DNA from: Thermoflexus hugenholtzii
GTDB taxonomy: Bacteria > Chloroflexota > Anaerolineae > Thermoflexales > Thermoflexaceae
Assembly (NCBI RefSeq): GCF_018771565.1
Contig: NZ_CP076326.1
Coordinates: 434,001 to 498,000 of the forward strand
Length of the DNA stretch: 64,000 bases
Direction: 5' to 3'
In this document: piece by piece, positions 46,009 to 64,000 of the stretch
Layout of the letters: each line of letters opens with the position of its first letter
Position numbering within the stretch: the stretch's first letter is position 1
Notes under the pieces: model-generated
What the model was told of the DNA's origin: nothing
What the model saw: only the letters and a program-made list of their open reading frames with translations
Databases searched by the model: none
Program-made: the position numbers and the translations under genes

Positions 46009-46464
46009 ATGCCGCGAGGGTGGCAGGAGGTCGTCCCCGGCATACGGATCCATATGGGCCGGCTGCGCCGGGCGGCGCGCGCCCTGGGGCTCCAGGTGAT
46101 CTTCCTGTTCGGCTCCCGGGCCCGAGGCCGGCCTCACGGGGCCAGCGACGTGGATCTGGCGGTGCGCGCAGCGTCCCCGCGCTGGCGGGACTGGCGGTGG
46201 CAGCTCCGGTGCATCCGGGAGCTGGCGGAGGCTGTGGAGGGCGCAGAGGTGGACGTCGCCTTCCTGAACCAGGCTTCCCTGGAGCTGCTCTGGGAGGCGT
46301 GTCAGGGCATCCTCCTCTATGAGGACCAGCCCCTGCGGGGGGCTTCCCTTCGCTCCTATGCGTTGCGCCTCTATGAAGACCACGAGAAGCTGCGCCGCGC
46401 AGCCCTCCGCGCGCTGAGGCGAAGCCATGGCCGCCCGAAAGCCTCACGGCGTTCTGCTCGCTAA
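46009..46464 (+). CDS. mntA: MntA-type nucleotidyltransferase antitoxin
   Basis: 151 residues. Nucleotidyltransferase motif FLFGSRARGRPHGASDVDLAV, the GSx10DxD form used by MntA antitoxins, which inactivate HepT by adding AMP. 38 bases of overlap with the following HEPN gene, and 4 bases after the isomerase stop. The C-terminus is Arg-rich. Confidence 0.9.
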   Translation: MPRGWQEVVPGIRIHMGRLRRAARALGLQVIFLFGSRARGRPHGASDVDLAVRAASPRWRDWRWQLRCIRELAEAVEGAEVDVAFLNQASLELLWEACQGILLYEDQPLRGASLRSYALRLYEDHEKLRRAALRALRRSHGRPKASRRSAR

Positions 46465-46822
46465 ACTTCAGAATCTCGAGGCTTATCTCCAGGAGCTGGA
46501 ATCCCTGGTGAGGATTCCGCTTGCCGAGTTCATGGGGCGCCCCTACTACCGACGGGCTGCGGAGCGTTTGATCCAGATCATCGTGGAAGATGCCATCGAT
46601 TGCGGAACGCTTGTGCTGGACCTGCTGGGAAAGCCCATCCCCGCCGCTTCCCGGGAGGTGTTTGTTCGTCTGCATCAGGCCGGCGTTCTGGGGCGCTCGC
46701 TGGCCAATCGCTTCCAGGAATATGTGGGATTACGCAACCGGATCGTCCACGACTATGACCGGATAGAGGCTCCGCTCGCTTATCGGGTCGGGCAGCGGTT
46801 GGTGCGGGATGGCTGTTCCTAA
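46427..46822 (+). CDS. hepT: HepT-like HEPN toxin
   Basis: 131 residues. HEPN four-helix domain with the RNase motif Rx4HxY (RNRIVHDY) near residue 110. In known type VII systems this cuts tRNA and is silenced by MntA-catalysed AMPylation of Tyr in this motif. Forms a pair with the overlapping mntA gene. Confidence 0.9.
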   Translation: MAARKPHGVLLAKLQNLEAYLQELESLVRIPLAEFMGRPYYRRAAERLIQIIVEDAIDCGTLVLDLLGKPIPAASREVFVRLHQAGVLGRSLANRFQEYVGLRNRIVHDYDRIEAPLAYRVGQRLVRDGCS

Positions 46823-59979: not shown

Positions 59980-62517
59980 TCACATTCCCTCCTCTTTCTG
60001 ACGGACGACGGCGCCGAGCCGTTCAGCGGCTGCCCGGATGAGGCGTTCCCGCAATGTGGCGACCTCCCGGTCCGTGAGGGTGCGGTCCTCCGCTTGATAG
60101 AACACAGTGAAAGCCAGGCTGCGGTGCCCGGGCGGGATGGGCGGCCCCTGGTAGACGTCGAAGAGGTGCACCTCGCGGACCAGGGGGGTGCCGGCCTCGC
60201 GCAGCACGGCGGCCAGGGCGGCAGCCGGCACGCTCTCCGGCACGATGAAGGCTAAGTCCTCCACCACCGGGGGCACCCGAGGCACCGCCTCAAAGACATG
60301 CGCGATGGGCGCCAGGGCCTGCAGGGCTTCCAGATCCAGCTCGGCGATCAGGACGGGCTGATCCGGCAGCTCCCAGGCCCGGCGCACCAGCGGGTGCAGC
60401 TCCCCCAGGATCCCCAGGGAACGTCCACCGGCCTTCACCTCCGCTCCCCGGCCCGGGTGCAGGCTCGGATGTTCCGCCCGCTCGAAGGCCACCCCCGGGA
60501 TGTGCAGGCGCTCCAGCAGCGCCTCAACGACGCCCTTCAGATCGAAGAAGTCCATCCACCCCCGATCCACGGGAAGCCACGAGGCCGGATCCCGCGGCCC
60601 GGTGAGGGCGATGCCGATCCGCCGCGGCTCCTCCGGAAGGGCCTCTCCGGGACGGGGGAGGAACACCTTCCCAACTTCGAAGATCGCCACCCGTTCCCGG
60701 AACCGGAGGTTGGCGCGAAGGGTGCGCAGCAATCCGGGGAGCAGGGTGTGGCGGAGGACGGTGCGCTCCTCGCTGATGGGGTTGATCAGCCGGACGTAGT
60801 CCAGGGCCGTGTAGGGATTGGCGACGCCGGGAGGGGCCAGACGGGCTTCCTCGTCCGGATGGATCAGGGCGTAGGTGATCACTTCCTGGAGCCCGCAGGC
60901 CACCAGGATGTCCCGGACCCGCTCCTCGAAGGCCCAGGCGGGGTTGCCCCGCTGCGGGGGCAGGGGATCCCGGAGCCGGGTCTCCGGCATCCGGTCATAG
61001 CCCCAGATGCGGGCGACCTCCTCAATGAGATCCTCCGGGCGCTGGCAGTCCAGCCGATGATCGGGGACGGTGACCCGCCAGGCGGCCGGGGCGGAGCGGG
61101 AGCGGGCGGGAGGCCGGGCGGGCTCGACCCGGAACTCCAGGGCGCGCAGGATCCGCTCGATCTCGCGGGGCGGGATGGCGAAGCCCAGCACGCGCTCCAC
61201 ATCCTGCGCGGAGAGCGGGAGGGTCACCCGTCGGGCCTTGCGGGCGTAAGCGTCAACGACCCCGCGGGCCACGACCCCATCGGCCAGGCGCTGCATGAAG
61301 GCGGCGGCCCGCCGGGCGGCGGGGAGGGTGAGGGCCGGGTGGATCCCTCGTCCGAAGCGGGCGCTGGCCTCGCTGGGCAGCTTGTGCCGGGCGGCCGTGC
61401 GACGGATGGAGATGAAGTCGAAGTTCGCGGACTCCAGGAGGACGGCGCGGGTGGCCTCCCCGACCTCCGTCTCCGCGCCCCCCATCACCCCGGCGATGGC
61501 GATGGGACCGGCCTCGTCGCAGATCAGGAGGTCCTCCGGATCCAGGTCTCGCTCCACCCCATCCAGGGTGCGGATCCGCTCGCCGGGGCGGGCGCGGCGG
61601 ACGATGATCGTGGGGGGGCGGCCGCCGGCCCGCTCCACCAGCCGATCGTAGTCGAAGGCGTGGAGGGGCTGGCCCCATTCCAGCATCACATAGTTGGTGA
61701 TGTCCACGATGTTGTTGATGGGGCGCATCCCGCACAGCCGCAGCCGCCACTGCATCCAGTAAGGGGAAGGACCGATCCGCACGTCCCGGATGACCATGGC
61801 GGAGTATCGGGGGCAACCCTCCGGGTCCTCGATGCGGACCCTCACGAGGCGGCGGGCCGTTGGGCCGAAGGCCCTCACCGCGGTGGGAGGGTAGCGCAGG
61901 CGCTTGCCGGTGAGGGCGGCCACCTCCCGGGCCACCCCGATGATCGAGAAGGCGTGGGCCAGGTTGGGGGTGAGGTCGATCTCCAGCACCACGTCCCCCA
62001 TGTAGTCCGCCAGGGGCATCCCCACCGGCGCCTCCGGGTCCAGCAGGATGATCCCCTCGTGGTCCTCGGAGATCCCCAGCTCTTTCTCTGAGCAGACCAT
62101 GGCGTCGGAATAGATCCCGCGGATGGCCCGGCCCTGGAGGGTCATCTTCACCCAGCCCGGCTGGTGGCCGTCGTAGAGGGTGGCCCCTTCCAGGGCGAAG
62201 GCCACCTTAAGAGGGCGCTCCGGCGGACGTTCCAGGAAAGGGAACAGGTTAGGCGCGCCGGTGACCACCACCTTCGGCTCCCCCCGGCCGTAGTCCACCG
62301 TGGCCAGGAGCAGGCGGTCGGCGTTGGGATGGCGCTCCACCCGGAGGATCTGCCCGACGACGATCCGCTCCCGGTCCCATTCCAGGGGAGCGCCGGGGAC
62401 CCCGAACCGCTCGATGGCGGTCACCTCCAGGCCGGCCAGGGTCAGGCGCTCGGCCAGCTCCTCCGGCGGCAGATCGATCCTCACGTATTCCTGTAGCCAG
62501 CGCAGCGGAACCCGCAT
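59980..62517 (-). CDS. pheT: Phenylalanyl-tRNA synthetase beta subunit
   Basis: 845 residues, normal for bacterial PheT. N-terminal tRNA-binding OB domain (about 40-155), B3/B4 editing domain, B5 domain, catalytic-like core and C-terminal FDX-ACB anticodon-binding domain (VPRVPPVVEDLAFIVPE to AAERLGAVVRQKEEGM). With PheS it attaches Phe to tRNA-Phe and edits Tyr. Start ATG 62517 begins the MRVPLRWLQEYV motif. It is separated from pheS by the MNT-HEPN fusion gene. Confidence 0.97.
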   Translation of the reverse strand: MRVPLRWLQEYVRIDLPPEELAERLTLAGLEVTAIERFGVPGAPLEWDRERIVVGQILRVERHPNADRLLLATVDYGRGEPKVVVTGAPNLFPFLERPPERPLKVAFALEGATLYDGHQPGWVKMTLQGRAIRGIYSDAMVCSEKELGISEDHEGIILLDPEAPVGMPLADYMGDVVLEIDLTPNLAHAFSIIGVAREVAALTGKRLRYPPTAVRAFGPTARRLVRVRIEDPEGCPRYSAMVIRDVRIGPSPYWMQWRLRLCGMRPINNIVDITNYVMLEWGQPLHAFDYDRLVERAGGRPPTIIVRRARPGERIRTLDGVERDLDPEDLLICDEAGPIAIAGVMGGAETEVGEATRAVLLESANFDFISIRRTAARHKLPSEASARFGRGIHPALTLPAARRAAAFMQRLADGVVARGVVDAYARKARRVTLPLSAQDVERVLGFAIPPREIERILRALEFRVEPARPPARSRSAPAAWRVTVPDHRLDCQRPEDLIEEVARIWGYDRMPETRLRDPLPPQRGNPAWAFEERVRDILVACGLQEVITYALIHPDEEARLAPPGVANPYTALDYVRLINPISEERTVLRHTLLPGLLRTLRANLRFRERVAIFEVGKVFLPRPGEALPEEPRRIGIALTGPRDPASWLPVDRGWMDFFDLKGVVEALLERLHIPGVAFERAEHPSLHPGRGAEVKAGGRSLGILGELHPLVRRAWELPDQPVLIAELDLEALQALAPIAHVFEAVPRVPPVVEDLAFIVPESVPAAALAAVLREAGTPLVREVHLFDVYQGPPIPPGHRSLAFTVFYQAEDRTLTDREVATLRERLIRAAAERLGAVVRQKEEGM

Positions 62518-62565: not shown

Positions 62566-63435
62566 CTACTTTCCGGAGCGAAGCCCCGTTGCGACCCCGA
62601 TGGCCTGGACGAAGTCCTCGATGTCCTGCATCGCCTGGGGGATTGCTTGAAAGACGAGGCGATCATCCACTTCCCAATATCGATGAACCAGCCGATGGCG
62701 CATGCGAATCAGGTCGGAGAGACGCTGCGCGAGCGCCTCGTGGAGCACTCCATGCTCCTGGAGCACTTGAAGCGCCTCACTGTAGGTTTCCGGGGGGCGC
62801 CAGCGGTTCTGAGCGATCAGGTGCTGGGCGATATCCACAATGGCTTCCGCTGCCAGCACCAGGTGATACCGGGCGCTGCCTCGTCGGTGTGGGTCGGCTA
62901 AGAAATCCGCCTCGGGCATCCGGGCGAGGGAATCGAGGGCCCGCTGGCTTTCAAACAGTGCGGAGAGCAGGTTGCGCATGCGATCGCTTTGATAGCGGAT
63001 CATCTGGAAGACACCTCGCAGGTAAGCTTCGTGCAGGCGGCGGACCTCGAAGTATTCGGTCCAGGTCGAGGCCTCGAAGTCGGCGCGGCGGCCCTCGTCG
63101 CGGCAGAGGAGAATGCGGCGGGGCCGGATGGCGGCGAAGCGGAAGGCCGGTGGCGCGGCGTTCAGGGCCCGCACGTCCACCGGGAAGGGGAGGCCGGCCC
63201 GGCGCAGCGTCGCCTCCAGGCGGGCGGCCAGCTCCGCTTCCCGGGGCCAGGCCGGCGTGGGAAAAGGATCCAGGAACACCGCGACGTCGATGTCCCGGAA
63301 GACTTCCCCCTCGACGAAGGAGCCGTGCAGGTAAGCGAAGACTACATCGGGCTCCCCAGCCAGGGCCCCGGCCAGGCGCTCTTCCACACGGCCCTTTTCT
63401 TCCTCATGGACCCGCCAGGTCTTGATCGGCTCCAT
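62566..63435 (-). CDS. MNT-HEPN single-chain fusion (MntA-HepT-like)
   Basis: 289 residues. Residues about 1-140 are an MNT nucleotidyltransferase (AYLHGSFVEGEVFRDIDVAVF, the GSx10DxD motif) and residues about 150-285 a HEPN/HepT domain with the RNase motif Rx4HxY (MRHRLVHRYWEVDD). Usually these are separate, overlapping toxin and antitoxin genes; here they form one polypeptide, with intact motifs in both halves. It lies between pheS and pheT on the same strand, 9 bases after the pheS stop and 48 bases before pheT, and is thus probably co-transcribed. The final residues LRSGK lie in sequence resembling a repeat fragment. Confidence 0.88.
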   Translation of the reverse strand: MEPIKTWRVHEEEKGRVEERLAGALAGEPDVVFAYLHGSFVEGEVFRDIDVAVFLDPFPTPAWPREAELAARLEATLRRAGLPFPVDVRALNAAPPAFRFAAIRPRRILLCRDEGRRADFEASTWTEYFEVRRLHEAYLRGVFQMIRYQSDRMRNLLSALFESQRALDSLARMPEADFLADPHRRGSARYHLVLAAEAIVDIAQHLIAQNRWRPPETYSEALQVLQEHGVLHEALAQRLSDLIRMRHRLVHRYWEVDDRLVFQAIPQAMQDIEDFVQAIGVATGLRSGK

Positions 63436-63444
63436 CTCCGCCCT

Positions 63445-64000
63445 CTAATCGAACTGCTCTAAGAAGCGCAGGTCGTTGGCCCAGAAATATCGAATATCGT
63501 CGATGCGATGTTTGAGCATAGTGATCCGTTGCGGCCCCATGCCGAAGGCGAAGCCGGTGAAGCGGCGGGGATCGTAGCCGCCGTTTTGCAGGACCACGGG
63601 GTGCACCATCCCGGCGCCGGCGATCTCGAGCCAGCCGGTGTGCTTGCAGACCCGGCAGCCTCGCCCCTCGCAGAGGATGCAGTCGATATCCACCTCCACG
63701 CTGGGCTCGGTGAAGGGGAAATACGAGGCGCGGAAGCGGACCTTGCGCTCGGGTCCGAACATCCGGCGGGCGAAGTCCGCCAGGGTGCCCTTAAGGTCGC
63801 TCATGGTCACCCCGGGGCCCACGGCCAGTCCCTCCACCTGGTGGAACATGATCTCGGAGCGGGCGGTGATCTGCTCATAACGATAACACATCCCGGGCAG
63901 GATCACCCGGATGGGCTCCGGGCAGAAGGCCCGCATGGCATGGATCTGTCCCGGGGAGGTGTGGGTGCGCAGGATCACTCCCTCCCGGTCGGTGTAGAAC
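63445..64000 (-). CDS. pheS: Phenylalanyl-tRNA synthetase alpha subunit (C-terminal part, 5' end outside window)
   Basis: Catalytic subunit of PheRS, cut by the right edge (the frame continues to 63999). Present: class II motif 2 (VILPGMCYRYE), EIMFHQVEGLAVG, the zinc site CILCEGRGCRVCKHTGW and motif 3 with FGMGPQRITMLKH. Stop at 63445 is 9 bases before the MNT-HEPN fusion gene. Confidence 0.96.
   Translation of the reverse strand, partial: FYTDREGVILRTHTSPGQIHAMRAFCPEPIRVILPGMCYRYEQITARSEIMFHQVEGLAVGPGVTMSDLKGTLADFARRMFGPERKVRFRASYFPFTEPSVEVDIDCILCEGRGCRVCKHTGWLEIAGAGMVHPVVLQNGGYDPRRFTGFAFGMGPQRITMLKHRIDDIRYFWANDLRFLEQFD

Follow-up and report, generated by a model that had tools for sequence, protein, structure and literature searches.

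A MntA–HepT-type toxin–antitoxin pair joined into one gene between pheS and pheT in Thermoflexus

In Shewanella oneidensis, the HepT–MntA system (SO_3166/SO_3165; structures 5YEP, 6M6U, 6M6W, and 7BXO) pairs a HEPN protein bearing an RX4HXY motif with a DxD nucleotidyltransferase (MNT), the two being separate proteins. The HEPN–MNT system of Aphanizomenon flos-aquae (7AE2, 7AE8, and 7AE9) is likewise encoded by two genes and has tRNA as its target. A passage of PMC11586414 describes the Aphanizomenon complex as 2:2 and cites a MntA:HepT ratio of 2:6 for Shewanella. The MNT motif found in Shewanella, GSX10DXD, was defined by Yao et al. 2020 (PMC7641770). The Thermoflexus gene described here encodes the same domain pair, with RX4HXY and a DxD nucleotidyltransferase, as one chain in which the MNT motif reads GSx8DxD. 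Specifically, such a chain would force an MNT:HEPN ratio of 1:1 unless free HEPN is also made, in contrast to the 2:6 of Shewanella, while the 2:2 complex of Aphanizomenon, whose HEPN shares 22–27% identity with the Thermoflexus HEPN half in Foldseek alignments, is compatible with a dimer of single chains.

Antitoxin and toxin also reside on one chain, as in Thermoflexus, in EzeT (a zeta toxin) and CapRel, in which the toxins are unrelated and inhibition is, to our knowledge, not by AMPylation. EzeT is thought to derive from an operon fusion (PMC4826407; for single-chain precedents see also PMC9712102 and PMC13423816). Within the HEPN–MNT group, Anantharaman et al. 2013 (PMC3710099) described the DUF86 HEPN domain as "occasionally fused to MNT" and considered MNT-fused HEPNs, which by their account "typically lack" the residues for RNase activity, to be probably inactive, and Makarova 2009 (PMC2701414) noted a HEPN–MNT fusion on plasmid pAgK84. 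The same two domains are joined in Thermoflexus. However, the Thermoflexus fusion keeps all of the RNase residues that the fusions of the 2013 survey typically lack, and, unlike both sets of earlier fusions, it can be traced to a 2-nt deletion in a genus whose sister species still carry two genes. The papers searched contained no experiments on a type VII system in single-chain form.

The window, that is, the whole stretch of 64,000 nucleotides analysed, comes from the single-contig, 3.32-Mb genome (G000) of a heat-loving bacterium of the genus Thermoflexus, to which Candidatus Thermoflexus sinensis, T. tengchongensis, and T. japonica also belong. As the preliminary description had proposed, and as the open reading frame and its coordinates bear out (Table 1), one frame of 289 residues carries both domains, beginning 9 bases 3′ of the pheS stop. 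It ends 48 bases 5′ of the pheT start. Both flanking genes are identified by NCBIfam equivalog matches (TIGR00468 for pheS and TIGR00472 for pheT).

Table 1. Features of the fused gene and its neighbours (positions in the window)
Feature	Positions	Strand	Basis and remarks
pheS, 3′ part	63445..64000	-	Runs past the window end; TIGR00468, 299.8 bits (full gene, L001)
Fused mntA-hepT gene	62566..63435	-	289 aa, single open frame, ATG start; both domains matched (Pfam, NCBIfam); AlphaFold2
MNT (MntA-like) half, residues 1–144	63004..63435	-	NCBIfam MntA, 60.8 bits; motif invariant in alignment; dN/dS 0.23 against G004
2-nt deletion joining the frames	between 63017 and 63018	-	Aligned against the two-gene forms of four relatives
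Internal Shine-Dalgarno GAGGTG, 8 nt 5′ of old hepT ATG	63012..63017	-	Retained
Former hepT ATG (Met145), from which free HEPN might be translated	63001..63003	-	Retained
HEPN (HepT-like) half, residues 145–289 and stop	62566..63003	-	NCBIfam HepT, 101.7 bits; Foldseek HepT; dN/dS 0.096
pheT	59980..62517	-	TIGR00472, 712.9 bits

Pfam recognizes a Polbeta domain at residues 21–114 (1.3e-12) and a HepT-like domain (PF01934) at residues 166–279 (7.3e-28), and the chain exceeds the cutoff of 60 bits for both NCBIfam HepT_toxin (NF047751) and MntA_antitoxin (NF047752), the latter barely. The HEPN motif is the Rx4HxY originally reported, R246-x4-H251-x-Y253. The MNT motif had been given as GSx10DxD; its actual spacing is G38-S39-x8-D48-x-D50, which makes the MNT loop 2 residues shorter than in the motif of Yao et al. 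MNT domains with the x8 spacing form a subtype that recurs in the family, among them those of two-gene pairs showing no other sign of incompleteness; D87 is the probable third catalytic Asp of this half. Judged by their residues, both active sites of the fused protein are intact. With an HEPN domain of the PF01934 type and RX4HXY, the chain carries the HEPN signature of type VII systems (HepT–MntA, class I); another hallmark of that type, two neighbouring genes, is present in four congeners (G001, G002, G003, and G005), and G000 and G004 have a single gene.

An AlphaFold2 model built on a 57-row alignment (mean pLDDT 91.5) comprises two folded domains, the MNT domain closing in a long C-terminal helix (residues 114–143) and the HEPN bundle running from residue 151, with a weak linker at about residues 140–150; with a pTM of 0.64, the placement of the domains relative to each other is not settled. 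In Foldseek comparisons the HEPN half matched the HepT chains of 6m6w, 7bxo, and 5yep, as well as 7ae8, with a TM-score by target of ~0.9 to solved HepT, and the MNT half gave weaker matches to MntA chains. A sequence search of solved structures with a profile of the MNT half returned no match, and PADLOC holds no model for the MNT–HEPN module. The features of a single-chain nucleotidyltransferase of the aminoglycoside type, a C-terminal HEPN-like domain that lacks RX4H and a closed, ANT-like two-domain fold, do not fit the protein: RX4HXY is present, and over the whole chain ANT(4′′) aligns with a TM-score of only ~0.33 and an rmsd of 10 Å.

The named Thermoflexus genomes were retrieved from genome contigs with an alignment of the MNT half as the query, a single-sequence scan having given nothing. 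An MNT/HEPN module lies between pheS and pheT in 8/8 Thermoflexus genomes in which the locus is assembled. A comparison that had been suggested earlier, whether relatives share both the gene order and the fusion, gives a split answer, with the pheS-x-pheT order found in all eight of these genomes and the open fusion only in G000 and G004. The four two-gene genomes carry separate mntA and hepT genes in an ATGA overlap: mntA ends in ...TTTATGATCC, where TGA is the mntA stop and ATG the hepT start. An ATGA overlap also joins pheS to mntA in these relatives. Aligned with them, G000 and G004 lack 2 nt just 5′ of the junction (CTGCGGGAGG to CTGCGAGG), so that the mntA frame reads on into hepT without meeting a stop. 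By this comparison the joined gene is a real gene fusion, and the ancestral state is two genes.

Other members of the genus show the module in various states of loss. G006 has the same 2-nt deletion together with a TAG directly 5′ of the old hepT ATG, further deletions, and Cys in place of the Tyr; the gene is thus dispensable in that genome, and the module looks like a decaying copy. Because loss of the 2 nt suffices to open the frame, and a single step turns CAG into TAG, it is more likely that this stop arose later, in a decaying copy whose junction was already open. In G008 mntA is intact and hepT is mostly deleted, and in G001 the catalytic His of HEPN is replaced by Tyr with the MNT intact; loss or breakage of the toxin half beside an intact MNT would be expected if HEPN is the harmful half. 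In G005 and G002 (L013 and L014), inserted repeats with CTACTACAAACAGGGG and GTAGTAGGGCACGTAAGTGCCCG separate hepT from pheT, and in G008 (L012) the hepT deletion seems to end at a similar repeat. Outside the genus, the pheS–pheT gap measures −2 to 176 nt, i.e. it is empty, in 17 of the 18 loci of the class in which pheS and pheT are adjacent. The eighteenth (L093) has a gap of 1215 nt occupied by an oxidoreductase-like gene (named by eye) rather than a toxin–antitoxin module, which indicates that the gap accepts other insertions.

Comparison of the two fused genes reveals 30 synonymous and 11 non-synonymous changes in the HEPN half (Fisher 4e-12) and 10 and 7, respectively, in the MNT half (Fisher 0.003), a pattern that points to strong purifying selection on HEPN in its fused form. 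Synonymous divergence is 0.36 in the HEPN half vs 0.095 in the MNT half, and nucleotide divergence is 9.4% in the HEPN half vs 3.9% in pheT, as if the HEPN segment had recombined with a more distant allele. Given this higher divergence, the segment may have a recombination history of its own, and part of the selection recorded in it may predate the fusion.

The old hepT start has also been preserved. Both fused species keep GAGGTG, the 8-nt spacer, and the ATG, and a Shine-Dalgarno sequence and start codon retained at the HEPN boundary mean that free HEPN may still be translated from within the fused gene. Among fused frames of the class, a Shine-Dalgarno-like 4-mer accompanies 14 of the 22 in-frame ATGs that lie within 16 codons of the HEPN start, as against 4 of 72 other internal ATGs (Fisher 4e-8), and the enrichment persists when GGGG sites are dropped from the boundary count and the control count is kept at 4 (10/22; 4e-5) or when 5-mers are required (6/22 vs 1/72; 5e-4), although these P values are optimistic because the fused genes are partly related.

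Single-chain forms are not confined to this locus or to this genus. When 298 genomes of the class were searched with a profile, full-length, single-frame MNT–HEPN matches turned up in many families, and RX4-6HXY is kept in 20 of the 21 fused frames examined, a set picked with a profile built from motif-bearing proteins. Mapped onto a HEPN phylogeny, the fused state must have changed no fewer than 10 times if the best tree is taken, or no fewer than 3 times if well-supported branches alone are counted, so that fusion or fission has been repeated. Plasmid records yielded partial matches only, mostly to separate DUF86 and nucleotidyltransferase genes. Since single-chain MNT–HEPN proteins recur in the class and were reported in 2013, the Thermoflexus fusion is best placed as a variant of type VII toxin–antitoxin systems.

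Three fused copies are present in G000, located at pheS-x-pheT, at ftsY-x-prfB, and directly 3′ of smpB. The second (L002:1468-2340, G000:C1:1900833-1901669; also L044) overlaps the end of ftsY and is followed by prfB (RF2), in an order shared by G002, and the third (L004:1462-2322, G000:C1:1045160-1045987; L046, L048, and L050) comes directly after smpB, the gene for the tmRNA-binding protein, and is kept in several congeners. None of the four two-gene modules examined lies in such a translation operon (three fused vs four two-gene modules, Fisher 0.029, a small post hoc sample). One of these four lies in the window itself, an overlapping two-gene MNT/HEPN pair with intact motifs (46009-46461 and 46427-46819, + strand) between the gene for a bifunctional phosphoglucose/phosphomannose isomerase and lpd. 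Elsewhere in the genome, MNT and HEPN share one frame parted by a single in-frame TAA, a near-fused pair (L003, G000:C1:1662282-1663043). Outside the genus, no association of fused MNT–HEPN genes with translation operons was seen, their neighbours being metF, rnj/ftsK, hypD, ArsA-like, PHP, BMC, lysK-like, and mutS genes (named by eye).

Collectively, these observations make it moderately probable that the gene represents a type VII (MntA–HepT) module whose two genes were fused by a 2-base deletion in the Thermoflexus lineage, yielding a self-limited RNase. What the sequence itself establishes is the fusion and how it came about, the intact motifs, the purifying selection, the conserved position, and the retained internal start. 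A joined gene with both active sites probably encodes a toxin with a built-in off-switch. The HEPN half would be an RNase working as a dimer, and the attached MNT half would draw on ATP to AMPylate Tyr253, next to the active site of HEPN, on its own or the partner chain, so that the RNase is kept off. A single chain would give 1:1 dosage and thereby a ribonuclease that limits itself, to be switched on if the MNT half were lost, damaged, or starved of ATP, or if free HEPN were made from the retained internal start; the module as a whole would be an old insertion between pheS and pheT, probably translated with them. A self-silenced RNase had been suggested in the preliminary description, and, with intact active sites in one chain and purifying selection on HEPN, it is the best reading of the sequence; a strictly single product does not follow, as the internal Shine-Dalgarno sequence and ATG remain. 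Points that count against the self-limited RNase are the view of fused HEPNs in PMC3710099, the shorter MNT loop, the divergence of the HEPN half, and the decay in G006.

Loss of a stop or a shift of frame through faulty sequencing or assembly, an objection anticipated at the outset, is almost certainly not the explanation: the two-gene relatives foreseen by that objection do exist, all four of them, but the identical deletion and open junction recur in G004, whose fused protein is 94% identical, the deletion is also present in G006, and G000 is a single-contig assembly in which the gene has no other frameshift. More serious, though still unlikely, is a disarmed or domesticated remnant in which HEPN only binds substrate or dimerizes and the protein serves to transfer nucleotides to some other substrate, comparable to single-chain aminoglycoside nucleotidyltransferases. 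The opinion of Anantharaman et al. that fused HEPNs are mostly inactive, the weak whole-chain Foldseek matches to ANT(4′′), and the lost or broken toxin halves of G001, G008, and G006 would fit such a remnant; against it, neither fused species has lost R, H, or Y, the dN/dS of the HEPN half is low, the whole-chain ANT match has an rmsd of ~10 Å at 11% identity, and the nearest relatives are two-gene MntA–HepT pairs. A further possibility, to which we give somewhat more credence than to the remnant, is that the fusion was near neutral and the locus is still a two-product module, the internal start yielding free HEPN that is silenced in trans by the MNT of the long chain. It is a sub-case of the self-limited RNase, and the two are not mutually exclusive. 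The site preserved in both fused species and the enrichment of such sites at HEPN boundaries in the class speak for it; however, the site may simply be left over from a fusion that took place recently, and the ftsY-x-prfB copy, L016, and other fused families have no in-frame ATG with a Shine-Dalgarno sequence there.

It had also been conjectured that location in this operon ties RNase dose to aminoacylation capacity. The constancy of the position in all eight congeners and the overlap of pheS with mntA in the two-gene relatives are consistent with a module kept at pheS–pheT so that RNase dose tracks the level of PheRS or tRNA charging, and the translation-operon sites of the other two fused copies in G000 favour this mildly. 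However, a search for a T-box or riboswitch upstream of pheS, run over 34 kb in five loci around pheS–pheT, gave no match to any Rfam element at the gathering score, fused modules in other families adjoin metF, rnj, hypD, mutS, and other unrelated genes, and the contrast between three and four modules is small and post hoc. The dose idea is thus left with no direct support. The same location would be expected of a module that hitch-hikes on an essential operon, and its insertion into an operon both essential and strongly expressed accounts for the site equally well, so that regulatory coupling appears improbable. We are no more confident in a broader proposal, an outside chance, that Thermoflexus maintains self-AMPylating single-chain RNases in its translation operons (pheS-x-pheT, ftsY-x-prfB, and smpB-x), with the pheS copy producing both a guarded chain and free HEPN in a ratio set by translation conditions.

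Thus, this locus presents a toxin–antitoxin fusion caught mid-process, with two species fused, sister species retaining two genes, and others without the toxin. Because the two-gene, fused, and toxin-less states occupy one locus in one genus, neutralization in cis and in trans could be compared in natural pairs, which bears on how an AMPylation-based antitoxin may act at a fixed 1:1 stoichiometry. The Thermoflexus fusion qualifies the published view of MNT-fused HEPN domains as inactive. Furthermore, the retained internal start suggests a route by which a fused toxin–antitoxin may remain releasable.
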